From NCBI GenBank assembly GCA_017436845.1, contig JAFSCJ010000005.1, positions 62,001-126,000 on the forward strand: a DNA stretch of 64,000 nt, read 5' to 3'. Every line of letters begins with the position of its first letter. The first letter of the stretch is position 1. Below, in pieces: positions 10,727 to 64,000 of the stretch. The DNA is from Muribaculaceae bacterium. GTDB lineage: Bacteria > Bacteroidota > Bacteroidia > Bacteroidales > Muribaculaceae. The translations under genes were made by a program, and so were the position numbers. The notes below the pieces were generated by a model. That model ran no database searches and was not told the DNA's origin. It saw only the letters and a list, made by a program, of their open reading frames with translations.

Positions 10727-10799
10727 ACACTAAATTAAATTGCCTTAATAGGTGCTTATTCAGAAATTCATAATAAAAACATCTAATATCACAATTGGA

Positions 10800-13253
10800 A
10801 TGAGAAAAATTTATACGTTTGTTTTCTTAATGCATTTAGCTATAGCAACTGCATTTGCCGCGACACCCATTCTTGGGACTAATGTTGCCACTGCTGAGCG
10901 CATGTATCAATTTGTTAAATCCCAAAACAGTTCATTTGATAGGGAAATTGCAGAGCAATTCATCGCTGTATCCACTGTTTACGGACTCAGAGGAGATATC
11001 GCCTTGTGTCAATCTATTATTGAGACAGGATGGTTTAAATATACAGGTGGTACGGCTGTTACCGCTGATGACCACAATTATTGCGGACTTGGTGTTACAA
11101 CCCTTGGAGAAAAAGGTTGTCAATTCTCTACTGTCAAAGAAGGGGTAACAGCACAAATACAACATTTATATGCCTATGCGTGTACAAAATCTCTACCATC
11201 CGGAGAAACATTAATTGACCCTCGATTTAATTATGTATCGCGAGGTAGTGCTCCTAATTGGGAAGACCTTGGTAGTGGAAAATGGGCAACCGCAGCCGGA
11301 TATGGTGACAAAATCATTGCAATGTATAATGATATGATGGCATTTAAGGTTACTGGTGATGAAGGCTCAACAACTCCATCAAATCCCACAACAGCATCAT
11401 TGACAGCAAGCACAACATCGGTATCATTGACCGGAACATGTGGTGGCACTTCAACAACAGCCTCAGTAACAATTACAGGTACAAATCTTCCTTATGATAT
11501 TGTTTACAACTCAAGTTCATCGGCATTTAAAGTAACAACTTCAAATTGGAATGTACGCACAGGAGGCACATTAAATATCACCCTTGACACATCAAAAACA
11601 GCAGGAACATACACCGGATATATCGCTGTACAAAATGGCTCAGACACAACCATCAGGGTAGAAATAAATTGTACCGGAACGTTGTCAGAAGGCTCAACTA
11701 CACCATCAAACCCAACTACTGCGTCGTTAACGGCAAGCACAACATCAGTGTCTTTGACCGGAACATGTGGTGGGACCTCTTCGTCTGCATCAGTGAATAT
11801 TACCGGAACAAATCTTCCTTATGATATTGTTTACAACTCAAGTTCATCGGCATTTAAAGTAACAACTTCAAATTGGAATGTACGCACAGGAGGCACATTA
11901 AATATCACCCTTGACACATCAAAAACAGCGGGAACATACACCGGATATATCGCTGTACAAAGTGGTTCCAATACATCTATCAGAGTGGAAATAAATTGTA
12001 CCGGAGTTTTATCATCAGGCACTTCTACGCCTTCTACACCTTCGGCTGTGCCAAATCAGTTCACTACCGATTGGTGTTATTCGGCAGCTAACGGTTCATC
12101 TGTTTCGTGGATGAATCCGGCAAATGATTATACTCGCAACATGGCATTAAAAGATGGTAAATTATATGTTGTGCAACGTGATCCCGATAATTCAAAAGGT
12201 TATATGCGCATAGTTGATGCTTATACAGGTACATTAAAAGGGACTTTGCCATCAACAGGAGTTACTGATGATGCCTACCAATTTGCGTCTGTTGCAAATA
12301 TGGGTGGTACTATTGTAGCATGTAATCTTGCTTATGGCGCAACAAGCACATTAAAAGTATATAGCTGGAGTAGCGATACAGCAACGCCGTCATTGATACT
12401 TGAAACGACTAATCATGGAGCACGTGCCGGAGACTTGATGTGTGCGTCAGGAACAATCAATAATGGTAAATTATATTTTGCATCAAACACAGGTTATCCG
12501 GGACAAATCATCGTTTATACGATTGTAAACGGACAATCAACAGGCACTTCTGTAATTACACTAAAAGATTCATCGGGAAATGCTTATGATCTCGGTGGCG
12601 GATTTGCTGTTATTGAGGTTAAGGTGTTAAGTGATGGTACAATATGGGCAGTTGGTAAAAACGGAGTCCCTGCATTATTTAGCTCTAATGGAACATTAAT
12701 ACGCCAATTGTCAACATCGGCACTTGATGGTAATATATTAGGCTCAAGCTATGCGCCATTTGACTTTGGTAGCTATAAATTGGCGGCAGCAATAACATAT
12801 AAGACTTCAGCTCAACAAGGATATTTAAATCTTATTGATGTGACGAAAGGTGAAGCTTCGGCAACAAAGATAAATAGCTTCCCTGTTCTTGGAGCAAGTG
12901 GAGTAACTAATGGAACCTTTGTTTCAACTGCTATAGCTGAGGTAGAAAACAACAAAATTCACTTGTGGGCTTTAATCCCCAAACAAGGTGTTGCTAAATA
13001 CACAGCAACTGCTCCAGCCGGCATAGACGACATTATTGCCGATAATAGTAATGTTTCAATAAACAAATTCGGTAATGTCATTAAAGTGCAAGGTGGAGTA
13101 GCAAGTGAAATTATGCTTGTCTCAATGTCGGGTGCTGTTGCAGCTCGCGATTCAGGCAATGAACTTGTTGTTGACTCAATGCCTAAAGGTATATATGTAG
13201 CTGTTGCCATAATGAGCGATGGCTCTCGTGTGGCATCTAAGATTGCATTGTAA
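10800..13253 (+). CDS. Secreted glucosaminidase (GH73-like) with two Ig-like repeats, propeller-like domain and T9SS tail
   Basis: 817 residues from the ATG that begins a clear signal peptide (MRKIYTFVFL...AFA); an upstream GTG at 10752 is rejected. Residues about 30-190 form a glucosaminidase domain of the type that cuts the glycan strand of peptidoglycan, with the likely catalytic Glu75 in QSIIETGWF and NYCGLG, KEGV and WATAAGYGDKI motifs. Two near-identical 109-residue Ig-like repeats follow (about 189-406). Next is a propeller-like region with DGKLYVV and AYTGTLKG motifs. The last 75 residues resemble a T9SS type A sorting domain (SMSGAVAARD, PKGIYVAVA). It shares this design with the amidase at 55.7-59.8 kb. 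Surface location is inferred. Confidence 0.85.
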   Translation: MRKIYTFVFLMHLAIATAFAATPILGTNVATAERMYQFVKSQNSSFDREIAEQFIAVSTVYGLRGDIALCQSIIETGWFKYTGGTAVTADDHNYCGLGVTTLGEKGCQFSTVKEGVTAQIQHLYAYACTKSLPSGETLIDPRFNYVSRGSAPNWEDLGSGKWATAAGYGDKIIAMYNDMMAFKVTGDEGSTTPSNPTTASLTASTTSVSLTGTCGGTSTTASVTITGTNLPYDIVYNSSSSAFKVTTSNWNVRTGGTLNITLDTSKTAGTYTGYIAVQNGSDTTIRVEINCTGTLSEGSTTPSNPTTASLTASTTSVSLTGTCGGTSSSASVNITGTNLPYDIVYNSSSSAFKVTTSNWNVRTGGTLNITLDTSKTAGTYTGYIAVQSGSNTSIRVEINCTGVLSSGTSTPSTPSAVPNQFTTDWCYSAANGSSVSWMNPANDYTRNMALKDGKLYVVQRDPDNSKGYMRIVDAYTGTLKGTLPSTGVTDDAYQFASVANMGGTIVACNLAYGATSTLKVYSWSSDTATPSLILETTNHGARAGDLMCASGTINNGKLYFASNTGYPGQIIVYTIVNGQSTGTSVITLKDSSGNAYDLGGGFAVIEVKVLSDGTIWAVGKNGVPALFSSNGTLIRQLSTSALDGNILGSSYAPFDFGSYKLAAAITYKTSAQQGYLNLIDVTKGEASATKINSFPVLGASGVTNGTFVSTAIAEVENNKIHLWALIPKQGVAKYTATAPAGIDDIIADNSNVSINKFGNVIKVQGGVASEIMLVSMSGAVAARDSGNELVVDSMPKGIYVAVAIMSDGSRVASKIAL
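11364..12017 (+). repeat. Two tandem 327-bp coding repeats
   Basis: Copy A is 11364-11690 and copy B is 11691-12017. A central block (11481-11602 and 11808-11929) is identical over 122 bases, and after one mismatch identity continues for about 30 more, while both flanks show many differences. The pattern suggests recent gene conversion between the repeats. Confidence 0.85.
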
Positions 13254-47538: not shown

Positions 47539-49212
47539 TTATTTGCTGTAACCCGGATTTTGTTGATATTGTTGGAAACTGATTACAGTCGATGGTATTG
47601 GGAACAAATTCATGTGTTTTGGAGTCTCTGCCCCACCATTACCTACATTGTTTTTCCAGTTCCAATTATATTTACCTCCGGCATATTTATCATGGCGTAC
47701 AAGATCGGTACGACGACAATTTTCACCATAAAGTTCACGAGCTCGTTCATCAAGTAGGTTATCAGCCGACAAATCAGCTATGCTCCAAGGAGCGACCTTA
47801 GCACGTTCACGCACATAATTTACATATTGAAGAGCATCTGAGGAATTTCCAGCGCCACCCAAAACATAAGCTTCAGCAGCTGATAGATAGATCTCTGCAA
47901 GACGAATTACACACCAATCGGCATCAGCAAATGCATTTGATGCAGGAGGACAATTTGCTTCATCAATTACACCATTGTCATCATAAGCATAGTTTGTATA
48001 CTTAACAGGCACGTATCCTTCCGAGAAATCAGTAATTGATGCATTTGTAATCTTCGCTCCATCTTTAGATGTCATCCAAAGTGCAGCACGATCATCAGGA
48101 GATACTCCATTGGCATCCCATCCAAATTTTTCAGAGAATTGTTGACGAGCATTCATACAGGTCCATGATGCATTAAGACCTGTTGTTGCATTTGTCATGT
48201 TCAATCCGGGTGTTGAAGTTGAAGAACCTGCAGCGATGTAAAATGTTGTACCGCCATAGTTTTGTAGATTGTCACCATCTTGAGGAATACCCCAAATAAT
48301 CTCATTTACACGAGAGCCTTGAGACATGTATTCGTCATTGTTGGCTCCAAATACTGCACGATAAGAGTTAGCAAGACCTGAATTTTGGAAACCTGCACCC
48401 TTGTGGTGATTAATGATTTTTTGACAGATGTTCCAGCATTTATCGTATGCGGGTGTTCCTGTAAACACCTCTGCATTAAGATAGAACTTAGCAAGAAGAG
48501 CATCGCAGGCTTCTTTACCTACATAACCATAAGAAGGTTCTACATAAGTATCTCCCCATTCTGCTGATACATTTTCAAGTTCAGAGACAACTTTGTTATA
48601 AAGTTCTGTACGTGTCAATTGAGCTGGAGCAACACCGGCAGCCATTGTTTCGTCAGAGTAACCGGCATTTCCAAACATGTCGATTGCATAAAAATAAGCC
48701 AAGCCACGCACTACTTTCACTTGACGTTTATATTCTTCTGCAAGAGGTAGAAGATCTTCTGTTAGATAGAATTTACCTCCTTCTACTGTGCGAAGGAATT
48801 CATTACAAAGAGCAATTTCGGTATAAAGACGAGAGTATGTGGTGTACATCACGCCATTATCAGCGGCAAATTGCATAGTAGCAAGCTCATATTGACCTGC
48901 GTCACCAAATTGTTTCCAAGCAAATTCATCGGTAGTTAATTCGTTACATACGAATACGGCACGAGTGAATGAGTTAGCTCCTGCGTCACCACCTGAAATG
49001 ATTGAGTTACCAGGACCTCCATATCCTGAAGTAGCAAGACCTTGATAACATTCCGCAAGCACACGATCCATATATCCTTTGGGATCTTGAGCAAATGTTT
49101 CGGGGACGATGTCATTAGGATCGATTACCGGATTATCAAGGTCATCGACACAAGATGTCAAAGCTAAAGCAGACACCCCTAATGCGATAAATAATTTATT
49201 TATTGATTTCAT
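47539..49212 (-). CDS. SusD/RagB-type glycan-binding lipoprotein
   Basis: 557 residues. The lipoprotein signal ends at ALTSC. The SusD fold is shown by the N-terminal TPR-like helices (VVRGLAYFYAIDMFGNAGYS), ALLAKFYLNAEVFTG and the C-terminal RLAEIYLSAAEAYV ... RARELYGENCRRTDLVRHDK. It caps the SusC channel on the cell surface and hands over glycan. It follows the susC-like gene by 20 bases. Confidence 0.96.
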   Translation of the reverse strand: MKSINKLFIALGVSALALTSCVDDLDNPVIDPNDIVPETFAQDPKGYMDRVLAECYQGLATSGYGGPGNSIISGGDAGANSFTRAVFVCNELTTDEFAWKQFGDAGQYELATMQFAADNGVMYTTYSRLYTEIALCNEFLRTVEGGKFYLTEDLLPLAEEYKRQVKVVRGLAYFYAIDMFGNAGYSDETMAAGVAPAQLTRTELYNKVVSELENVSAEWGDTYVEPSYGYVGKEACDALLAKFYLNAEVFTGTPAYDKCWNICQKIINHHKGAGFQNSGLANSYRAVFGANNDEYMSQGSRVNEIIWGIPQDGDNLQNYGGTTFYIAAGSSTSTPGLNMTNATTGLNASWTCMNARQQFSEKFGWDANGVSPDDRAALWMTSKDGAKITNASITDFSEGYVPVKYTNYAYDDNGVIDEANCPPASNAFADADWCVIRLAEIYLSAAEAYVLGGAGNSSDALQYVNYVRERAKVAPWSIADLSADNLLDERARELYGENCRRTDLVRHDKYAGGKYNWNWKNNVGNGGAETPKHMNLFPIPSTVISFQQYQQNPGYSK

Positions 49213-49232
49213 ATATCTACTAATTTACAAGA

Positions 49233-52200
49233 TTAGAATGTTGCAACTAAACCAAGAGTAAATGTTACAGGACGTGGATAAACATTATTATCTACACCTG
49301 AGAATACTTCAGGATCAAGTCCGCTATATTTTGTGATAACAAACGGATTTTGCACAGCACCAAACAAACGAAGACGAAGTGCATTGTTTAACAATTCAGT
49401 CCAAGTATAACCAAGAGTGATGTTATCACAACGCAAGAAACTCGCATTTTCGAGGAAGTAATCACTACGCGCAAGATTTGAGTTTGCACTTGCATCATTG
49501 AAATAGTAATCTGCTTTAACTAAATTGTTCAAACCATAACGATCAACATTGGTTATATTTGATTTACCAGCAAGAACAGAGTTAAACACATAGTTTCCAA
49601 TGTTAGCACGAAGCGAGATCCCTAGATCCCAGTTCTTGTAATTGAATGTGTTGCTCCAAGACATTGTTACTTTAGGATCGCGAGAATGTTTAACTACAAG
49701 GTCGTTATCATTGATTTCGCCATCACCATTTTGGTCAACATATTGGTTAGGAATTGGATTTCCGTCCTTGTCATATACTTGTTCCAACAAGTAGAATGAA
49801 TAAGCAGGATGTCCCACTTTGTGGACTTGAAGAGCACCGGCATTTTCTGAAATTGGGTTACCGGCTGCTTGCAAATAATAAGATGCATTTTCAGCTGTAG
49901 AACCTGTCAATTCAGTCAATTCATTTTTATTCCATGCAACGTTAAAGCTTGTGTTCCATGTAAAGTCTTTTGTAACAATAGGCTTAGCAGTAATTGTTGC
50001 TTCAAGACCATAGTTACGAAGCTCACCAATATTGCGGTCCATGAAGTTAGTTGTTGTCATACCGGCAGGAACAGGAACATAGGCAAGCAAATCTTTTGTA
50101 TCACGAAGATACCAGTCTAAACTTGCTGTAATACGGTTGTTGAGTAATCCCATATCAACACCGACGTTCCATGTTGTTGTTTCTTCCCATTTCAGATCAG
50201 GATTATATGCTTTTGGATAAAGAGGATTAATCCAATCATATTGTTTTCCATCAGGAGACGGGTAGTTTACAATACCGTTTGATGCTGATTGAGCATATAC
50301 AGGAATATATGGATAAAGACCACCTACTGCTTGTTGACCTGTTACACCCCATCCAAGACGAAGTTTCAAATCATTCATAAAACTCTTAGCTCCATCCATA
50401 AATGGCATGTTGAGCACCTTCCAACCAAGAGCAAGTGCGGGGAACAATGCCCAACGATTGTCTTTAGAGAAACGAGATGTTCCATCATCACGGAGAGTGA
50501 ATGTCAACAGGTAAGTGTCATCAAATGAGTAGTTGATACGTCCATAGAATGAAATCAAATTCAATTGACCTTTCCAATAATATGTTGGAGCATCATTATA
50601 AGAATGGCCTACATTAAGGATTGATTCATTGTCAACACCGAGATTGTATTGTCCGTTTTGATAGATTGTTGCCCAATCGTTTATGAAACCAGGAGTTGAG
50701 AATGTAGTCAATGAATGACCTTGATAATCATCACGTTGCCATGAATAACCTACGATAGCATCAACATTTGATTTAAAATCTTTAAATTCTTTCTTGTAAT
50801 TTGCATAGAATTCAAGAAGTGTATTACGCTCAAGTTGATAATGGTCATAAACTGTTCCGGCTCCATTGTAATAGTTTCCTCTCCATGATTGAGGCGAATT
50901 TTGAGCCATTGTTGATTTTGTTTCATTCTTAGAAACATCATAACCAAGGTTCAAGTTTAGGTGAACATCTGGGAAGAAGTGAAGAGCATAATCAAGTTGA
51001 AGATTACCATTTGAACGCAAAACTTCAGCTGTATTATTTATTTCATCAAGCATAGCCACAGGGTTGTTTGGAGAGTTATCCATTGGCTTGCCTGAATTAT
51101 CGGTAATTGTAGTATAACCATTATACATTGTCATTCCTTCACTTGACATTCCATATTGAGTGTAGACAGGAAGAGTTGGGTTATAACTCAATGCAGTACC
51201 CACAGCTCCTTGATCAGCCATGCGGTTTTTGATATATGCTCCCTTAATGTTTGCATTAACAGAAAGCATGCCATTAAAGAACTTAGGAGTTAAGTTCAAC
51301 CCTACTGTTGTACGATCCATGCGAGATGTGCGAAGAATACCATTACTATTGGTATAAGATGCCGACACACGATAAGGCAACCAATCCAATGAACCGCCAA
51401 CGCTCAAATTATAGTCATGAGAAACAGTTGTGCGAAGAATTTCATCTTGCCAATCAGTGTTTGCGTCTCCAAGTTGAGCAATAGCTGATTCAGTTCCAAG
51501 TGTTTCAGTAACAACTTTACGGAATTCATCGGCACTAAGCACGTCCCAAGTTCGAGCAGCGGTATTCACATGCATATTTGCAGAGAAATTAACTTGAGGT
51601 TTGCCTGATTTACCTTTCTTAGTTGTGATGATAATAACACCATTAGATGCACGGCTACCATAGATCGCTGTAGCAGAAGCATCTTTCAATACTGTCATTG
51701 ATTCAATATTATCAGGAGAAATCATTGTTAACGGATTAACACCGCCATAGCTTCTGTCGCTCATTGGCACACCATCAAGCACGATCAATGGGTCATTGCT
51801 TGCACTAAGAGAAGCACCACCACGAATACGTATTGAAGCGCCACCTGTTGGGTTACCACCATCTGTTGTTACAACAACACCAGGAGCAGCACCCACAAGA
51901 AGATCTTGTGCTGAAGTAGCAAGACCTGCTTCAATTTCGTCTGGCTTCACCATAGTTACAGAACCGGTTGCGTCTGATTTCTTAACGACACCATAACCGA
52001 TAGCCACAACTTCTTGAAGCACTACCGAATTTTCTTTAAGTTCAACATTGATTGTTGTGCGACCATCCACAGAGATTGTCTGTGTGTCGAAACCCACATA
52101 AGACACAACGATTGTGCCATTTGCATCAACATCAAGACGATAATTACCGTCAATGTCAGTTGCAACACCTGCGCTTGTTCCTTGTGCAAGTACACTTGCG

Positions 52201-52340
52201 CCGATGAGTGGCTCACCGGTAGGATCTGTTACAGTACCTGAGACTGTAATCTTCTGCGCTAAAGCAGGGAAAGAAAGGCAAAGCACCATTACAAGGCTAA
52301 GCCATGCTTTCCGATTCATTTGAAAACAAATGTTCTTCAT
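49233..52340 (-). CDS. SusC/RagA-type TonB-linked outer-membrane transporter
   Basis: 1035 residues. A signal peptide ends at ALAQ. Residues about 32-115 are a carboxypeptidase-regulatory-like domain (GTVTDPTGEPLIGASVLAQG). A TonB box-like segment and a plug domain follow (EVVAIGYGVVKKSDATGSV; GGASLSASNDPLIVLDGVP; SATAIYGSRASNGVIIITTK), then a 22-strand barrel ending in Phe (TLGLVATF). It imports oligomers with TonB energy. First gene of the four-gene uptake operon. Confidence 0.96.
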   Translation of the reverse strand: MKNICFQMNRKAWLSLVMVLCLSFPALAQKITVSGTVTDPTGEPLIGASVLAQGTSAGVATDIDGNYRLDVDANGTIVVSYVGFDTQTISVDGRTTINVELKENSVVLQEVVAIGYGVVKKSDATGSVTMVKPDEIEAGLATSAQDLLVGAAPGVVVTTDGGNPTGGASIRIRGGASLSASNDPLIVLDGVPMSDRSYGGVNPLTMISPDNIESMTVLKDASATAIYGSRASNGVIIITTKKGKSGKPQVNFSANMHVNTAARTWDVLSADEFRKVVTETLGTESAIAQLGDANTDWQDEILRTTVSHDYNLSVGGSLDWLPYRVSASYTNSNGILRTSRMDRTTVGLNLTPKFFNGMLSVNANIKGAYIKNRMADQGAVGTALSYNPTLPVYTQYGMSSEGMTMYNGYTTITDNSGKPMDNSPNNPVAMLDEINNTAEVLRSNGNLQLDYALHFFPDVHLNLNLGYDVSKNETKSTMAQNSPQSWRGNYYNGAGTVYDHYQLERNTLLEFYANYKKEFKDFKSNVDAIVGYSWQRDDYQGHSLTTFSTPGFINDWATIYQNGQYNLGVDNESILNVGHSYNDAPTYYWKGQLNLISFYGRINYSFDDTYLLTFTLRDDGTSRFSKDNRWALFPALALGWKVLNMPFMDGAKSFMNDLKLRLGWGVTGQQAVGGLYPYIPVYAQSASNGIVNYPSPDGKQYDWINPLYPKAYNPDLKWEETTTWNVGVDMGLLNNRITASLDWYLRDTKDLLAYVPVPAGMTTTNFMDRNIGELRNYGLEATITAKPIVTKDFTWNTSFNVAWNKNELTELTGSTAENASYYLQAAGNPISENAGALQVHKVGHPAYSFYLLEQVYDKDGNPIPNQYVDQNGDGEINDNDLVVKHSRDPKVTMSWSNTFNYKNWDLGISLRANIGNYVFNSVLAGKSNITNVDRYGLNNLVKADYYFNDASANSNLARSDYFLENASFLRCDNITLGYTWTELLNNALRLRLFGAVQNPFVITKYSGLDPEVFSGVDNNVYPRPVTFTLGLVATF

Positions 52341-55729: not shown

Positions 55730-58700
55730 TTAGCGGATAGCAATTTTCTTAGTGTGAGTTACGCCATTAGCGTCAACAACTACAACTACGTAGATACCGT
55801 TGAGACCTTCAACGTTTACTTCGCTTGCATTGTTAACCATGCGCACCATTGCACCGCTCATTGAGTAAACACCCACAGCTTGTGCTTCTACACCGTCAAC
55901 AAACAATGTACCACCTACTGTATAGATAGAAGCCTTAACTTCTTCTGTATTAGCAATTGCATCTTCAACGCCAACAGTTGATTCTTTCTTACCATCATAG
56001 TAGTAGTAAGCAACACCTTGACCATTTACTGCTACCCATAGGTCAAGAGACATTCCATCGTTGCGATCTGTTGCTACGCATACAGTTGATACACGTTGAG
56101 CATTACCTGTCTCGCCAAGCCCTGATGCAGGACGTGTTTCAATTGCTGTTTCACTGCCAATTCCTGCCGACACATCAAGCAATGCCAATTGACCTCCTGT
56201 AAGAGCAGTTGTGCTTGTATATGTTGTAGCTGCAGCAAGTTTACGGTCTCCGAATGTGAAGAATTTCAATGCTGTACCAAATTTATTTACTACTGAAGCC
56301 ATTGACTTAGATAGTGTAGCTGTGGTTCCCGAAACTGTGAACAGTGTAGGAACAGCATCTTTAGCATCAATCCAAAGTGTACCATCAGAGTTCAAAATAA
56401 CTTCAGCTGATCCACGACCATCACCTGCAACCCATGCTGTAGTACCATCTGCTTTCATTAGGCTGATAGTGTTCAATGTAGAATTTACAGCGCCATTAGA
56501 AATAGTGTAGTAGTATGCTTCAGTTGTGCCATCGTTAGTGAACCACAAACGACCATTTGTCAAGTTTCCGCTGATTGACATTGAGCCACCCATAATCTTA
56601 CCTGTTACTTGTTCAAGAAGAACTTTTGGTGCAGATGTATCGCTATCCCATTGATAGATGCGTAGTGTTTGAGTAGCTGTTACACAAGCACAACCGATAA
56701 TCTTACCATCAACAGCCAAGATGTCTGACAATTGGATAGTAGCGCTACCAATGCCTGTCATGTCAAGAGTACCTTCTTGTGCTCCTGTATAAGCATCTAC
56801 GATTGTAACAACAGGAGTTGCCCATGCTTTGTTTTGAAGGACGTAAAGTTTACCATCTTGATAAGCTGCTGCACGAACAACATTGGTTGTCAAGTCAATG
56901 TATGATGGTTGAGTTCCGTTAGTTGAGAAGTTCCAACCTTCTGTAAGAACGATGTTTTGATCATCAAATGTGTAGTTAGGTTTACAACTACCTTTGAGGG
57001 TAACTTTCACTGTAGAAGCGTTAGCTGAAGTAAGCGTCAATGTCGCTGTGTGATCACCCTTAGCTGTTGGAGCATAAGTAACAGTAATCTTACCGTTAGC
57101 GTTACCACCTGATTGAGCTACTTTTGAAGTTGAGATACTGAATAAGTCAGCATTTGTACCTGAAAGGGCAGCTGTAATATCACCTTCAAGATAAGCACCT
57201 GTCACAGTTATATCAGCAGTTGTAGAGTTTCCTTCTGTTGTAGTCATTTCAAGAGCCGCAGTGCTTACAGAGATAGAAGGAATGTTTTCATAAGTGTAAG
57301 TAGGAGCAGTTCCATGTTTGTAATAAGCGATACCTTGGTTGTGTACCAATACCCACATTTCAACTCCTGATGTACCGTTAACATTCACACAAATACTTGT
57401 AGAGTAAGAAGTGTTACGAGTCTTAGAGCTGAGACCTGCAGAAGGATAGTTACCTGAACCTGTAAGACCTTCAACGGCCCAACCTTCACTACCATCAATC
57501 AATACTGCACGACCACCAAGAAGAGTTTGAGCATTAACCTCAGCAGGTGTGAAAGTACCATCACCATCAGTATCAGTTACTCTGTTATAGGCTGTTGTAA
57601 ATGCATATTGAGTACCTTTGAATGTAAATGGCACAAAGTCGTTACCGCAACCATCAGAAGCTTGACGTATATTAGTTGCAGTAAGAGGAATTGATTGAAT
57701 CAATTCACCGTTAGCATTGATTTGAGAAGCGACATAATGTTGTCCCAATACCCAGAAATTATTTCCATCAGGCACTGCACGTGGAGAAGAACCTGCAATA
57801 AATGCATCAACATCAGCAACAACAGGAGTAGTAGAAGCTACACCATTTGTAACAGCGTATGTAACAAGAGAGTTACAGTTACCATTTGCAGTATTACCAT
57901 CAGCATCAGTATAATCGCGAGTTTGTTGAGCGAAATAACAAATCTTACCTGAAGTCAATGTTCCTTGGAAATTAACTGTATCACCAATACGATCCATTCC
58001 ACCAAGATTAGTAGTTTCAAGAAGCACACGTGGAGTAGCTTCGTCATTATCCCAAATATAAACCTTGAGAGTCTTCATTGTATCATTAGATGCCAATGCA
58101 ATGTTTGTACCGATGAGTTTACCATCAACGTAAGCAACGTCAACAAGAGCCAATGCACCACCTGTTACACCTGTCATATCAAGGTCATAAAGATGTTCAC
58201 ATGTTTGAGCTTTGATGACTTTTACCTTGTTATTTGTAACATCAACTACATAAAGTTTACCATCGCCAAATGCCATGTTACGATAGCTTGTCCAGTTAGC
58301 CATCCAACCTGCTTTTTTGTTAGAAGTTTCAGAGTAGTTCCAACCTTCAGTGAATGTCAATGGAGGATTAACAGCAGTACCGGATACTACCATTGTAGTT
58401 TTGTGAGTTCCACTTGTGAATGTAAGAGTAGTGTTGTGAGAGCCTACTGATTTAGGTTGATAAGTAACTGTGATAGTACCGCCTGATGTACCAAGAGATG
58501 TGTGAGAAATCTTGAAATCGGTAGTATTGCTACTTGCGATAGAGATATTTGCAGTCAAGTCAGTACCTGAAACTGTAAGAGTTTTGTTTGAAGTTCCATC
58601 AACGTATGTTTGACCAAAGCCCATTGATGTAGGGTTCAAAGAGATACCACTATTTGTTCCTTGTACAAAATCGATATCTTTTTGAGTAGCCTTATTATTT

Positions 58701-59758
58701 GAAACAGTTACAGTGTGAGTTTGTGTTTTGTAACCATCTTTTGCTACTGTAAGAGTATAAGTACCGGCAGGCACGAAGAAAGCAAACACACCATTACCTT
58801 TAGCTCCTGTAGAAACTGTATAGTTAATACCATTTCCGCTCAAAGTAACATTAGCATTATTTACCGCAAGATACAAGTCACGACCACGAGCTGTATAATT
58901 AGAATAACCACAACCTTGTGATTTATCACGCACGTCACCTACAACACAACCGGGAAGACTACCAGATCCACCGGGAGCGGTCAAGTTACCAACAGCGATT
59001 TGCCATGCAAGGAATTTGTTGTAAAGTGAAGATTTGAAACGCAATGATTCAGGACGGTAGTCGTGGAACCATGTTTCAACCAAGTACCCTGGTTGAGTAT
59101 TAGTACGAAGCACACCATAGTGCCATCCCATCAAGTCATAGTCGGCCATTGAACGAGGAGTTCCATAGGTAAACTCAGTCAAACAACCATTATTATAGTT
59201 GTTTATAGAATTTTCACGAGCCATACGTTCAGAACCGGCAATCGAGTTCGTAGCGTTAGAACCTTTATAAAGAGCTACGTGGTAGTTTGCACTTGCATTG
59301 GCACCGTTAGAGTGCATTGATATAAAGTAACCACCATATGAGCTTGAAGCAGTAGCGATAGATGTTAGATTCAAGTCCCAGGCAGAAGTATTTTCACGAC
59401 GAGACATTTTCACGGTACCACCATTTTGGATCAACCATTGTTCCATGTGAAGAGCGCGGTCGAGGTTACCTTCTGACTCATAGAAATATTCTCCTCCAAG
59501 CAAAGGCATAGGAGTAGGACGGTCGTCAGAGTCAAAACCACCATGACCGGCATTTACATACCATTTACCACTCTTATTATAATTAGAACTTATTAATGTG
59601 TTACCCGTTTTAAAGTTTGCAGGAGTTGAAAGTTTATAAGGACCACCAGTTGCAGCAGAACCGGTATAGTTAGACGCTACATCATAAGCATATGTTACTG
59701 CATTTGCATCGATTGTGAGGCTCGAAATCAAAAGAGCCGATAATAATATCTTTTTCAT
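55730..59758 (-). CDS. Giant secreted N-acetylmuramoyl-L-alanine amidase with propellers and T9SS tail
   Basis: 1342 residues. A signal peptide ends at about residue 20. The Amidase_3 domain (about 60-255) shows its zinc and catalytic residues: His72 in NAGHGGFD, Glu96 in ESEGNLD, His149 in SMHSNG and Glu228 in LVETWFHDY. It cuts the bond between muramic acid and the peptide stem. Then come a PEGA-like domain (about 290-365), an Ig-like domain (about 372-465), a first propeller-like region (about 468-845), a second Ig-like domain (about 850-945), a second propeller-like region (about 950-1255) and a T9SS type A-like tail (about 1265-1342, VYSMSGAMVRMV, LNGIYVVVVVD). It follows the TolB-like gene by three bases. 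The same design is used by the glucosaminidase at 10.8 kb. Confidence 0.88.
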   Translation of the reverse strand: MKKILLSALLISSLTIDANAVTYAYDVASNYTGSAATGGPYKLSTPANFKTGNTLISSNYNKSGKWYVNAGHGGFDSDDRPTPMPLLGGEYFYESEGNLDRALHMEQWLIQNGGTVKMSRRENTSAWDLNLTSIATASSSYGGYFISMHSNGANASANYHVALYKGSNATNSIAGSERMARENSINNYNNGCLTEFTYGTPRSMADYDLMGWHYGVLRTNTQPGYLVETWFHDYRPESLRFKSSLYNKFLAWQIAVGNLTAPGGSGSLPGCVVGDVRDKSQGCGYSNYTARGRDLYLAVNNANVTLSGNGINYTVSTGAKGNGVFAFFVPAGTYTLTVAKDGYKTQTHTVTVSNNKATQKDIDFVQGTNSGISLNPTSMGFGQTYVDGTSNKTLTVSGTDLTANISIASSNTTDFKISHTSLGTSGGTITVTYQPKSVGSHNTTLTFTSGTHKTTMVVSGTAVNPPLTFTEGWNYSETSNKKAGWMANWTSYRNMAFGDGKLYVVDVTNNKVKVIKAQTCEHLYDLDMTGVTGGALALVDVAYVDGKLIGTNIALASNDTMKTLKVYIWDNDEATPRVLLETTNLGGMDRIGDTVNFQGTLTSGKICYFAQQTRDYTDADGNTANGNCNSLVTYAVTNGVASTTPVVADVDAFIAGSSPRAVPDGNNFWVLGQHYVASQINANGELIQSIPLTATNIRQASDGCGNDFVPFTFKGTQYAFTTAYNRVTDTDGDGTFTPAEVNAQTLLGGRAVLIDGSEGWAVEGLTGSGNYPSAGLSSKTRNTSYSTSICVNVNGTSGVEMWVLVHNQGIAYYKHGTAPTYTYENIPSISVSTAALEMTTTEGNSTTADITVTGAYLEGDITAALSGTNADLFSISTSKVAQSGGNANGKITVTYAPTAKGDHTATLTLTSANASTVKVTLKGSCKPNYTFDDQNIVLTEGWNFSTNGTQPSYIDLTTNVVRAAAYQDGKLYVLQNKAWATPVVTIVDAYTGAQEGTLDMTGIGSATIQLSDILAVDGKIIGCACVTATQTLRIYQWDSDTSAPKVLLEQVTGKIMGGSMSISGNLTNGRLWFTNDGTTEAYYYTISNGAVNSTLNTISLMKADGTTAWVAGDGRGSAEVILNSDGTLWIDAKDAVPTLFTVSGTTATLSKSMASVVNKFGTALKFFTFGDRKLAAATTYTSTTALTGGQLALLDVSAGIGSETAIETRPASGLGETGNAQRVSTVCVATDRNDGMSLDLWVAVNGQGVAYYYYDGKKESTVGVEDAIANTEEVKASIYTVGGTLFVDGVEAQAVGVYSMSGAMVRMVNNASEVNVEGLNGIYVVVVVDANGVTHTKKIAIR

Positions 59759-59761
59759 GGC

Positions 59762-60688
59762 TTATTTTTCTTTAATTGTCATGACATAAACTTTACCTTC
59801 ACGTTCAGTGTGGAAAGCGATTTGGCTACCATCGGCAGAAACTGAAGGAAACATCTTAATCTCATCAGATGGAGCAGTGAGTTGTTGCATTTGTGTTCCA
59901 TCGGCACGCACGATAACGATATCACTCTTAGTATTGTAATAACCATCATGAGCATCGTTCATACCCACAACGTGAGTATTACCACGCCATTGTGGAGCGC
60001 GCATACTACCAAGTTTCACAACATTTCCGCCATTAAGGTCGCAAGTATATGCAACATCGGCACAGCAGAATAAAATTTTAGTACGGTCAGGAGAAAGAGA
60101 TGTCCAGATATATTGTGGATCCCAATCTCCATATTGTCCGGCAAGCGGGTCAAGAACAGTGCGATTACCATTCTTATAAACGACTATTTTAAGGTCTTCT
60201 TCCGTAACGTGAGTAAGTTGACGACGCACCGGTGTCAATGGATTTGTAACAACTGTACCAACGATTGCGCCTTTAGTGGCGTAAGCAGCTTCGCCGTTGT
60301 TCAAAGAAATTTGGTTAACGTGTTCAATGTCTTTAGCAATAACTGTAAGAGCCTTAGTCTCTACATTCATGGCATAAAGAGTTTGAGTAAAGTTTTCTTG
60401 ATTCATCGAGCGTGTCAAGATTGTCTTACCATCGGCACTGATTACAGGATAGTAACCTGCACCTTGCATGTCGGTCAACTTGGTATAAGATTGTTTCTCG
60501 ATGTCAACGAGACCAAGTCCGTTGTAATCTTCAGAAGTTACCAACAAAGTTTTGCCATCGGGCATGAAACGAGGGTGATAAACCTTGGTTATCCCTGTCT
60601 TCACTTGTTGAAGATCAACGACTTCAAACTGCTGAGCTTGAGCTACTGTGGCTCCGGCTACAGCTAAACAAAGAAGTAGTTTTTTCAT
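59762..60688 (-). CDS. TolB-like propeller protein, exported
   Basis: 308 residues. A signal peptide (MKKLLLCLAVAGATVAQA) is followed by PD40/TolB-type propeller blades: HPRFMPDGKTLLVTSED, YPVISADGKTILTRS, TSLSPDRTKILFCC, APQWRGNTHVV and FPSVSADGSQIAFHTERE. No sorting domain, so it is probably periplasmic. It lies just upstream of the giant amidase gene (three-base gap), so the two are almost certainly made together. It could assist or restrain the amidase; nothing in the sequence decides. Confidence 0.82.
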   Translation of the reverse strand: MKKLLLCLAVAGATVAQAQQFEVVDLQQVKTGITKVYHPRFMPDGKTLLVTSEDYNGLGLVDIEKQSYTKLTDMQGAGYYPVISADGKTILTRSMNQENFTQTLYAMNVETKALTVIAKDIEHVNQISLNNGEAAYATKGAIVGTVVTNPLTPVRRQLTHVTEEDLKIVVYKNGNRTVLDPLAGQYGDWDPQYIWTSLSPDRTKILFCCADVAYTCDLNGGNVVKLGSMRAPQWRGNTHVVGMNDAHDGYYNTKSDIVIVRADGTQMQQLTAPSDEIKMFPSVSADGSQIAFHTEREGKVYVMTIKEK

Positions 60689-60976: not shown

Positions 60977-62530
60977 TTAATTTCTCTTGGGGCTAAGTGT
61001 AATAAGAGGTATTATCATCTCTTCCATAGAGATACCACCATGCTGAAACGTATCGGTATAATACTGCACATAGTGATTGTAATTGTTAGGATAGGCAAAA
61101 AAATCTCGTCCTGAGGCGAAAATATATGTCGATGACACATTGAGCGATGGCAAGCCATATCTTTCTGGTTGCTTAATCTCATATACCTGTTTGGGATTAT
61201 AGCTCAGGTTTTTACCTACCTTATAGCGCAAATTAGTGTTTGTGTTCTTATCCCCTATTACTTTTATGGGATTATCAACGCGTATAGTTCCGTGATCGGT
61301 AGTCAAGACAATCTTATACCCGGTGTCGGCTATCTTGCGAAACAACTCAAATGCCGATGAATGACGGAACCAGGACTCTGTCAAAGAGCGATAAGCGGCA
61401 TTTGACGCTGCAAGTTCACGTATCATCTTAGACTCAGTGCGAGCATGCGAAAGCATATCGATGAAATTCAGCACCACAACATTGAGGTCGTTTGTTTCAA
61501 GATTAGAAAACTCTCTAATGAGTTTATCTCCCGATGCCGAGTCATTAATTTTGTTATAAGAGAAACGACAGCGACGGCGATAACGGTCAAATTGCGTTGC
61601 TATCAATGGCGACTCGTTCAGATTCTTACCTTCATCCTCATCCTCATCAACCCATAGATCGGGGAACATCTTCGCAATCTTGTCGGGCATCAAGCCGGAA
61701 AATATCGCATTGCGAGCATATTGTGTAGCCGTGGGCAATATAGAGCAATATAAATCCTCCTCAAACGTAAACATTTCGCTTAATAGTGGTTTTATGGTGC
61801 GCCATTGGTCAAGGCGAAAGTTATCTATAAGTATAAAAAATAGTTTTTCTCCCTTATCCAAAATGGGGAAAACATGATTTTTAAACACTTGCGGACTCAT
61901 CAAAGGATGGTCCTCTCCGGTAACCCATTTCTCATAATTCTTTTTTATGAATTTTGAGAATGTTGCATTCGCCTCTTGCTTCTGCATTGATAGGAGGTCA
62001 TCCATATTTGTATCCGTCGCCGCAAGTTCCAATTCCCAAAACACGAGTTTGCGATATAGCTCATACCAATCCTCAATCGTGTAAGAGTCATTTATGAGCG
62101 ATGTAATTCTGCCAAACTCTTGCCGATAATCACTTGTTGCCTGTTCTGATACAAGTTTTTCGGAATGAAGATTTTTCTTTATAGATAGTAAAATTTGATT
62201 AGGATTTACCGGCTTGATAAGATAGTCGGCAATTTTGTTTCCCACCGCCTGATCCATGATATTCTCCTCCTCGCTCTTGGTAATCATTATCACCGGAATG
62301 TGAGGTTTAACATGCTTAATGCGAGATAGCGTTTCAAGCCCTGTCAAGCCCGGCATGTTTTCGTCAAGAATAATCAAGTCAAAGTGTTGATTTTCCACCA
62401 ATTCTAATGCGTCACGACCATTATTGACCGTAACAACTCCATATCCCTTATTCTTTAAAAACAGGATGTGAGGCTTTAGTAAATCTATTTCATCATCGGC
62501 CCATAATATGGTGTGAGTGTTTACAGTCAT
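60977..62530 (-). CDS. porX: PorX: T9SS response regulator with PglZ domain
   Basis: 517 residues, the length of Porphyromonas PorX. The receiver domain (1-125) has ILWADDEIDLLKP, the phospho-acceptor Asp56 in LIILDENMPGLTG, Thr in VIMITKSEEE, and Lys in YLIKPVNP. The rest is a PglZ/alkaline-phosphatase-like domain with metal-site motifs FFILIDNFRLDQW, ILPTATQYARNAIFSG, VVLNFIDMLSHAR and VLTTDHGTIRV. PorX controls and supports type IX secretion with sensor PorY. It follows porW by 14 bases. Its presence fits the sorting domains on three exported proteins in this window. Confidence 0.94.
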   Translation of the reverse strand: MTVNTHTILWADDEIDLLKPHILFLKNKGYGVVTVNNGRDALELVENQHFDLIILDENMPGLTGLETLSRIKHVKPHIPVIMITKSEEENIMDQAVGNKIADYLIKPVNPNQILLSIKKNLHSEKLVSEQATSDYRQEFGRITSLINDSYTIEDWYELYRKLVFWELELAATDTNMDDLLSMQKQEANATFSKFIKKNYEKWVTGEDHPLMSPQVFKNHVFPILDKGEKLFFILIDNFRLDQWRTIKPLLSEMFTFEEDLYCSILPTATQYARNAIFSGLMPDKIAKMFPDLWVDEDEDEGKNLNESPLIATQFDRYRRRCRFSYNKINDSASGDKLIREFSNLETNDLNVVVLNFIDMLSHARTESKMIRELAASNAAYRSLTESWFRHSSAFELFRKIADTGYKIVLTTDHGTIRVDNPIKVIGDKNTNTNLRYKVGKNLSYNPKQVYEIKQPERYGLPSLNVSSTYIFASGRDFFAYPNNYNHYVQYYTDTFQHGGISMEEMIIPLITLSPKRN

Positions 62531-62544
62531 GACGTTATTTAATT

Positions 62545-64000
62545 TTATGGTGTATCTAATAGCGGATCATCCCCCTCTGAGCCTGATGGATATTCAGGGA
62601 GAGGAGTTTTTGCCTTATCCGGAGCTTTTGTCGGAGCTACAGGTTTTGCAGGTGTGGCAGTTTTTGTTTCTTTTGGTGTTTCAACAACTTTTTCCTCTTT
62701 AACAGCAGGAGCCGGCAACTTCGGTGCAATAATCTCTTCCGGGATTTGTTCCTGTTTTATCTCTTCAGCCGGAGCAGGAATCGCTTGAGTTTCAATAATC
62801 ACAGGAGCCGGAGCAGGTTGTGTCACATTGGAAATATCCTCTACCGGGATTTCACCAAACACGGCACCATCCTCTGCAGCCTCAACAGCTTGCGCTCCCA
62901 CATATTGGAAATATTCCTCAAATGAGCGACCTTGCTTAATGAGAGTATCAAAATTCTTGGCGCTGATAATAATGGGGCGCACCTGTGGAGGCAATTGCAA
63001 ATGAGTGCTTGCCTTCATCACCTTACGATAATGGCTCAACTCTTCCATGTTCTCAAAGCCTTTTATTATCAACAGCCCAAGCTGTCCGAAGTTCATTTGT
63101 TCAAGTTCAAAATCCTTAACAACAAATGATGCGAAGTTGTGTCGCGCGATATCAAACAGCAACTGATTGGCAGAAACCGTATCAGTCGGATAGGTCAATA
63201 TCAACAATTGAGGGATATCCGTACTAAGATCAAACTCAATAGGACCGGCATCAGCACCGGGAACAGAATCATTTGTCAATCTTATGTCCCACAACATTCC
63301 ACGCATATTGGTTGCTCCGCTTTCGAGTTTACGCCCTTGCGCCATCTGCTTCAAATAGGATGTTGCCAATGGTGTGATATCTGTTTCGGGGTATCGTTCA
63401 AGCAACTCTTTGAGAGTAGCATTGAATTTTTCAGGCTCTTTCTCTGTAACATAGGCCAACGCATGCAGGAACATAAACTTGGGCATGATTTCACTCAATG
63501 GGAAATCGCGCATCATCTCCTCATAAGCGGCATGCACTTTTACATTATCATTATTGAGATATGCATCATAAGCATCGGCATACATCTGCTCTTGACGCAC
63601 GTTCATCATCTTGATATTCTCAAAATAGTTAGGATCTTTCATCGCCATTCCTTGCGGAGATTCGGGGAACTGACCTATAATCATGTTGCGATAACGCTCT
63701 GCAAGAGTTGTATCACCTTTGCGCATATACATCAGATACATATTATAGTATACATCAAGGCGATAGATATTATCGGGATAAGTAACAAGGAGTCGTTCAA
63801 ACTCAGATGCCGCCGCGCCATAATCTTCCAGTTTATCCTTCAGAATTACACCCATATTAAACAACCCTTCCTGAATTACTTCATGAGCGATGTTTTTTTC
63901 CTCATCGGTTTTCGGGATTTGTTTTAAATAATACTCCGGATAATGAGGATCCTCGGCACGTTTTTCGCGTTCTTTCTCCTCTTTCAATTCCTTTTCTGAT
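62545..64000 (-). CDS. porW: PorW/SprE-like T9SS lipoprotein (N-terminus beyond the window)
   Basis: The frame runs off the right edge; about 484 C-terminal residues are visible. TPR-like helical repeats occupy the first half (GVILKDKLEDYGAAASEFER, then LLVTYP; NIYRLDVYYNMYLMYMRKGD). A beta-rich domain follows (LLILTYPTDTVSANQLLFDI; FGQLGLLIIKGFENMEEL), and the end is a Pro/Ala/Glu/Lys-rich linker closing with DPLLDTP. This is the pattern of PorW/SprE, a lipoprotein needed for type IX secretion. The lipobox is not in the window. Its gene is just upstream of porX, so the two are cotranscribed. Confidence 0.82.
   Translation of the reverse strand, partial: SEKELKEEKEREKRAEDPHYPEYYLKQIPKTDEEKNIAHEVIQEGLFNMGVILKDKLEDYGAAASEFERLLVTYPDNIYRLDVYYNMYLMYMRKGDTTLAERYRNMIIGQFPESPQGMAMKDPNYFENIKMMNVRQEQMYADAYDAYLNNDNVKVHAAYEEMMRDFPLSEIMPKFMFLHALAYVTEKEPEKFNATLKELLERYPETDITPLATSYLKQMAQGRKLESGATNMRGMLWDIRLTNDSVPGADAGPIEFDLSTDIPQLLILTYPTDTVSANQLLFDIARHNFASFVVKDFELEQMNFGQLGLLIIKGFENMEELSHYRKVMKASTHLQLPPQVRPIIISAKNFDTLIKQGRSFEEYFQYVGAQAVEAAEDGAVFGEIPVEDISNVTQPAPAPVIIETQAIPAPAEEIKQEQIPEEIIAPKLPAPAVKEEKVVETPKETKTATPAKPVAPTKAPDKAKTPLPEYPSGSEGDDPLLDTP

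Follow-up and report, generated by a model that had tools for sequence, protein, structure and literature searches.

The locus analysed here raises the question of why a Muribaculaceae bacterium would export enzymes that cut cell walls, and what they would do to its own wall on the way. The window, by which we mean the whole stretch of 64,000 nucleotides under study, encodes a putative glucosaminidase and a putative amidase, both of which end in T9SS-like tails. A sequence-only reading of this DNA had treated the two as products of one T9SS export design.

Results

Two predicted wall hydrolases of different catalytic families

The glucosaminidase is encoded on the forward strand and has the following features.

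10800..13253 (+), T9SS-tailed glucosaminidase, 817 aa, with signal peptide MRKIYTFVFLMHLAIATAFA (PF01832, 43.1 bits; intact ORF)
10953..11336 (+), glucosaminidase catalytic domain, residues 52-179 (PF01832; Glu of IIETGW)
11391..12014 (+), two Ig-like repeats (sequence repeat; beta-sandwich in structure model)
12057..13010 (+), DUF4623-like propeller with LKDGKLYVVQRD (homology, model and structural match)
13065..13244 (+), T9SS type A-like tail (genome profiles)

The reading frame starts with the ATG at 10800, and an in-frame GTG lies at 10752. The product is a predicted PF01832 glucosaminidase by its domain score (43.1 bits against a cut-off of 30.2) and by the catalytic Glu, which lies in a QSIIETGW motif and is invariant in an alignment of 11 orthologues. 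The Ig-like repeats are a near-identical pair, both beta-sandwiches in the structure model, and their number differs between orthologues; a shorter relative of 207 aa (L063) consists of the catalytic domain alone. In the model, based on 11 sequences, pLDDT was only 28-50 over residues 80-166 of the catalytic domain, and the beta-rich part alone was used. Genes of succinate dehydrogenase/fumarate reductase usually adjoin the glucosaminidase gene in orthologue neighbourhoods.

The amidase is encoded on the opposite strand.

55730..59758 (-), T9SS-tailed amidase, 1342 aa (PF01520, 37.9 bits; zinc site; intact ORF)
58988..59557 (-), Amidase_3 catalytic domain, residues 68-257 (PF01520, zinc site)
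58673..58864 (-), CarboxypepD_reg-like domain (common to most other paired amidases scanned)
57269..58351 (-), first propeller (FGDGKLYVVDV), approximate limits (sequence; homology to the glucosaminidase propeller)
55964..56956 (-), second propeller (QDGKLYVLQN), approximate limits (homology to the glucosaminidase propeller)
55736..55894 (-), T9SS type A tail (25.0 bits, over the cut-off in the genome scan; 28.0-35.5 bits by genome profiles)

With a PF01520 score above the cut-off of 27 bits, and with the zinc ligands H, E and H and the catalytic E all in place, this protein is predicted to be an Amidase_3 zinc amidase. Its Ig-like domains gave weaker matches of the choice-of-anchor/ASH type, and the propeller motif occurs in two copies (DGKLYVV and DGKLYVL), compared with one DGKLYVV in the glucosaminidase. 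An N-terminal Sec signal peptide was read directly from the sequence of both proteins rather than with a dedicated predictor. These findings bear out the earlier description of two wall hydrolases from different catalytic families, PF01832 and Amidase_3, each with a signal peptide, Ig-like domains and DUF4623-type propellers that carry DGKLYVV-type motifs.

A common pool of propeller modules and T9SS tails

The best structural match of the propeller module was 4FTD, the DUF4623 protein BACEGG_03550 of Bacteroides eggerthii (Foldseek E = 1.8e-15; phmmer E = 0.0013). The likeness lies in the fold of the C-terminal propeller module, but here the DUF4623-like fold occurs as a module within T9SS-tailed enzymes. 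The same propeller was found in three other proteins of the genome, namely an amidase on contig C21, a protein on C11 and a Cthe_2159-type protein on C23. The C11 protein (G000 C11:26101-29400; L066:4102-7401; 1099 residues) combines a TolB-like N-terminus, a region that by eye resembles a papain-like peptidase, an Ig-like region, the DUF4623-like propeller and a YNLQG tail.

Curated tail profiles gave borderline results. In a single-protein scan with TIGR04183 the amidase tail scored 19.2 bits (cut-off 23) and the glucosaminidase was not listed, and in a whole-genome curated scan the amidase tail reached 25.0 bits, over the cut-off, and the glucosaminidase tail 18.9 bits, not over it. For this reason we turned to a profile made from 19 of the genome's other tails, with which the amidase scored 35.5 bits and the glucosaminidase 31.2 bits. 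The seed of this profile contained relatives of the tested amidase; a stricter profile, from which all related amidases were left out, gave 28.0 and 19.5 bits, respectively, whereas none of 3,820 shuffled tails exceeded 10.2 bits. The 19-tail profile was passed by 9 of 10 full-length glucosaminidase orthologues, and in orthologue L061 a YNLQG tail replaces the type A tail. The T9SS-like tails of the earlier description are thus backed by the held-out genome profile and are borderline with curated ones.

YNLQG-type tails (YYNLQGVKV..GIYIVKRGNKVTKEYVK) were observed on many otherwise T9SS-cargo-like proteins of G000 and its relatives, and are missed by type A profiles. Scored with the genome profile they reached 8-9 bits, the same level as the shuffles; they were not accepted as T9SS signals and were kept as a separate class.

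The T9SS machinery was represented by SprA in the genome (2758 bits) and PorX in the window (842.8 bits), and SprA was present in all 59 Muribaculaceae genomes searched. Relatives of this source lineage come from ruminant hindgut and faeces. Judged by their tails and the context of the genome, the glucosaminidase and the window amidase are predicted T9SS cargo.

About 45 proteins of the genome bear a tail, and neither tail nor propeller is confined to wall hydrolases. The two window proteins draw on this common T9SS module pool, and the idea of a pair with one design is not supported. Whether their common architecture is ordinary T9SS cargo modularity that implies no joint function is, in our judgment, evenly balanced. 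The number of tailed proteins and the propellers of the C11 protein and the Cthe_2159-type protein speak for it; modularity accounts for the common modules, but leaves the TolB pairing and the salvage context described below unexplained. It is also compatible with the explanation that we favour.

A TolB-like propeller gene directly upstream of the amidase

The most unusual part of the locus had been missed by the sequence-only reading. A gene for a TolB-like protein lies directly upstream of the amidase gene, on the same strand and across a gap of 3 bp, and the T9SS regulator gene porX is its upstream neighbour.

59762..60688 (-), TolB-like (PD40) propeller partner, 308 aa, with Sec signal peptide and without T9SS tail (PD40, 50.8 bits; AlphaFold pLDDT 93.8)
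60977..62530 (-), porX, T9SS response regulator (NF052313, 842.8 bits)

The AlphaFold model of the partner is a confident propeller, which matches TolB and many WD40 proteins in general fold only. The structural match to TolB of the Tol-Pal system, a periplasmic PD40 propeller, had a TM score of 0.52 by query length. Identity with that TolB was rejected: TIGR02800 gave 46.3 bits against a cut-off of 343.15, and the protein is 308 aa long and lacks the N-terminal TolB domain. Unlike tolB, the partner gene pairs with an amidase gene and not with tol-pal genes. Every partner that we read carries a Sec signal but lacks a tail, and neither an OmpA domain nor a lipobox was present in these copies.

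The segment directly upstream of the TolB-like/amidase pair (60977-63987, minus strand) contains porX and an ORF like the C-terminal part of PorW/SprE. We do not regard proximity to porX as a conserved feature of the pair, as it was seen in the source genome only; most of the compared loci carry little upstream sequence.

The amidase-propeller pair is ancient in the phylum

The expectation of further members in the genome was borne out: its 2.25 Mb encode nine T9SS- (type A) or YNLQG-tailed amidases of this kind. In seven of the nine, the window's included, a TolB-like gene lies directly upstream at a distance of 2-31 bp, and the tailed amidases on C22 and C6 have no partner gene. Because C22-like and C6-like copies sit among paired amidases in the tree, the phylogeny suggests that they lost their partner.

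Two profiles, built from the seven partners and the seven catalytic domains, were searched against the same 59 family genomes. This yielded 86 pairs; both genes occur in 21 of the 59 genomes, the amidase alone in one and the partner alone in none, and the other 37 have the T9SS and neither the amidase nor the partner. Of 104 TolB-like matches 86 were paired, and the rest lay mostly at contig ends or beside weak or sub-threshold amidase matches. Outside Muribaculaceae, the pair was found in four genomes of the order, and a search of the phylum gave matches in 51 of 395 genomes, all except G000 and G411 outside the source's class. The amidase lies directly downstream of the TolB-like gene in 19/19 inspected loci from other classes, and a PF18962 tail above the curated cut-off was present in 8 of 9 distant paired amidases scanned; one distant pair (L248) has an amidase without a tail. 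SprA was present in all 23 non-family genomes tested. Across 105 amidases the zinc ligands do not vary, and only two truncated proteins lack the catalytic Glu. The amidase-propeller pair is ancient in the phylum, and no description of it turned up in the literature that we searched for links between the T9SS and peptidoglycan hydrolases, amidases or MurNAc, or between PD40 proteins and amidases; that literature included few subscription papers, so this absence is weak evidence.

Periplasmic enzymes for turnover of the cell's own wall would be another use for such a set, with the partner as an activator in a role like that of EnvC or NlpD. Amidase_3 enzymes commonly serve division, recycling genes lie near the pair in some genomes, and the distant L248 pair is tail-less. 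We consider this use improbable, however, in view of the number of pairs, which reaches seven or more per genome, of the tails, which most relatives keep, and of separate tail-less Amidase_3 proteins in the source genome (C14, 358 aa; C2, 479 aa), which are likely the housekeeping copies.

Among 65 complete paired amidases, 41 had a type A tail, 15 a YNLQG tail, 3 a dockerin-like end and 6 another or truncated end, where type A was assigned by the genome profile and the other classes partly by eye. The TolB-paired amidases of L146, L184 and L198 end in a dockerin-like repeat and not in a T9SS tail. The partner thus tracks the amidase catalytic domain over differing tails (type A, YNLQG and dockerin-like), which argues against a second conceivable role, in which it would not inhibit the enzyme but serve as a cargo-specific adaptor of the T9SS or as a surface anchor. 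This role is suggested by analogy with PorE/PorP-like partners of type B cargo: a propeller domain is present in the T9SS component PorE, and T9SS cargo with type B tails is known to have partner genes next to it (PMC9143113). Among the genomes tested, the pair also occurs only in those that bear SprA. In contrast to PorE/PorP-like proteins, the partner is a free propeller tied to one enzyme type. Nor does a gene of this kind accompany some 40 further tailed proteins of the genome, and the partner sequences that we read, which contain neither an OmpA domain nor a lipobox, also count against an adaptor. We regard this role as unlikely, although it is the main rival to the one that we prefer.

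The trees of partners and enzymes correlate (Mantel r = 0.86; permutations at most 0.14). Because partners in any stable operon are inherited together, we do not take this agreement as proof of binding. The gene pairing is one-to-one (86/104), as in enzyme-inhibitor pairs, but a partner does not accompany every enzyme copy, since two tailed amidases of the genome have none. Likewise, no TolB-like partner was found for the glucosaminidase in its orthologue neighbourhoods. A partner is therefore not always needed.

Peptidoglycan-salvage genes beside some of the pairs

On contig C12 of the source genome, the genes downstream of two pairs encode a Golvesin_C protein that weakly matches Amidase_3, a glycosyltransferase, a DUF4922 protein, SpoIID, an AmpG-like permease, the exo-muramidase NamZ (263 bits), a NagX-like protein, a kinase-like protein and MurQ, whose 312 bits exceed the equivalog cut-off of 302. 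In another class (L232-L235), MurQ (371 bits), an acetyltransferase, a NagB-like protein, an NlpC/P60 protein, an L-Ala-Glu-type epimerase and an AmpG-like permease are encoded beside the pair, and a GH3 (NagZ-like) enzyme at L234:12451-13821 has a T9SS tail (43.8 bits, over the curated cut-off). A third lineage (L245) has NamZ, AmpG-like, NagB, GH3 and kinase-like proteins and no MurQ. Genes for MurQ and a muropeptide permease are linked to the pair at C12, L232, L233 and L235. Salvage markers were present in 8 of the 20 contexts examined, five of those eight from one family, and absent from 12; none lies beside the glucosaminidase or the amidase of the window. The salvage neighbours point to breakdown and use of peptidoglycan.

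The sequence-only reading had left it open whether the enzymes digest wall fragments or attack other bacteria. Exogenous peptidoglycan is the best reading of their substrate, and nothing points to killing: attack is unsupported because the recurring neighbours are genes of peptidoglycan catabolism. The corresponding proposal would be that the hydrolases are exported weapons that lyse mainly Gram-positive neighbours, with the TolB-like protein as the immunity protein. Such one-to-one adjacency is seen in toxin-immunity pairs, the partner is periplasmic by sequence, and a T9SS-linked class of antibacterial toxins is present in the phylum (PMC7073777). We find this proposal very doubtful, as the partner lies upstream and is conserved like the enzyme whereas immunity genes change fast, the enzyme copies are inherited vertically in a salvage context, and polymorphic toxin architecture was not seen.

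Several other tailed enzymes and utilisation genes were observed in these surroundings. In three distant genomes (L218, L228 and L230), a T9SS-tailed Amidase_2 enzyme with Big_5 domains is encoded immediately upstream of the TolB-like/amidase pair, and T9SS-tailed NAGPA enzymes lie upstream of the pair in two Bacteroidales genomes. The window encodes an enzyme of the latter type, and the source genome has a second tailed copy on contig C7.

18647..21097 (-), T9SS-tailed NAGPA phosphodiester glycosidase (PF09992, 102.6 bits; PF18962, 36.2 bits; TIGR04183, 47.4 bits)

NAGPA-type enzymes cut GlcNAc-1-phosphate diesters, and the linkage between teichoic acid and MurNAc is of that chemical type. 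Because of this match, the tailed NAGPA enzyme could be a candidate for stripping Gram-positive walls. At L207 (G032:C4:9000-19000), a T9SS-tailed amidase without a TolB-like partner was seen by eye to adjoin or follow SusC- and SusD-like genes in the style of a utilisation locus. The window has a SusC/SusD pair at 47539-52340 (minus strand), which is unlinked to the hydrolases.

Discussion

Taken together, we think it rather probable that T9SS-exported hydrolases of this bacterium digest foreign peptidoglycan for nutrition and that the TolB-like partner has a periplasmic role, perhaps that of holding the amidase in check. The glucosaminidase and the amidases would enter the periplasm by the Sec pathway and then cross the outer membrane through the T9SS, to act at the cell surface or in the medium on the peptidoglycan of other bacteria or on debris. 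With export tails on the hydrolases, foreign peptidoglycan is most simply the substrate. The glucosaminidase would cut the glycan chain and the amidases the bond between MurNAc and peptide, and the released sugars and peptides might be taken up and catabolised by way of NamZ, an AmpG-like permease and MurQ.

T9SS cargo folds in the periplasm ahead of export. The earlier claim that the cell's own peptidoglycan is out of reach of the enzymes is, on this account, only partly tenable: they would enter the periplasm first and meet the cell's own wall there. Most of the amidases appear to be made from a two-gene operon that begins with the gene for a soluble TolB-like propeller lacking an export tail. 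This protein may stay in the periplasm, bind the amidase and hold it inactive or correctly folded until the T9SS takes over. We propose restraint of the amidase because the cell's own wall would be cut by an amidase active in the periplasm. A guard or an escort is in keeping with a secreted propeller that has no tail, is co-expressed with the enzyme and comes first in the operon. Of all these steps, the role of the partner is the most conjectural. With some hesitation we prefer a guard to a T9SS adaptor or anchor. The stronger proposal, that TolB-like propellers are a new family of periplasmic guards, each of which binds and silences its own amidase during transit through the periplasm, is a tentative one that we hold to be possible and short of probable.

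Use of foreign peptidoglycan has precedent in another Bacteroidales bacterium that bears a T9SS, and the earlier claim that no such system is described must be narrowed accordingly. Tannerella forsythia has a salvage system for foreign peptidoglycan (MurT/MurK/MurQ, AmpG) that includes AmpG, which is required, MurQ and a MurNAc kinase, and its cell extract had amidase, muramidase and lytic transglycosylase activities, of which the amidase was suggested to be periplasmic (PMC7670621). AmpG-like and MurQ genes beside two pairs in the source genome extend the likeness. In contrast, the available sections of that report do not identify polymer-opening extracellular enzymes and describe no TolB-like partner or T9SS-tailed hydrolase (PMC7670621), and we found no description of T9SS-exported hydrolases that serve peptidoglycan salvage in the literature searched. 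That part of the claim stands. The hydrolases resemble T9SS type A cargo such as the gingipains (TIGR04183/PF18962) in their Sec signal and C-terminal tail and in the presence of SprA. They differ in being peptidoglycan hydrolases with a dedicated gene partner of periplasmic type, of which we found no described example in the literature searched.

The window most likely contains two members of a larger, nutritional set of T9SS-tailed wall hydrolases, together with one amidase-propeller pair. If this is true, concrete enzymes could be named for the first step of peptidoglycan scavenging in Bacteroidota, and the T9SS would be a route of wall digestion in gut bacteria, where the release of muropeptides bears on host sensing of peptidoglycan. 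It would also pose the question of how folded wall-cutting enzymes pass the cell's own periplasm without harm, to which the conserved partner offers a direct handle. If the partner proves to be a guard, it would be the first inhibitor system reserved for hydrolases that the T9SS exports, and one that is ancient in the phylum.
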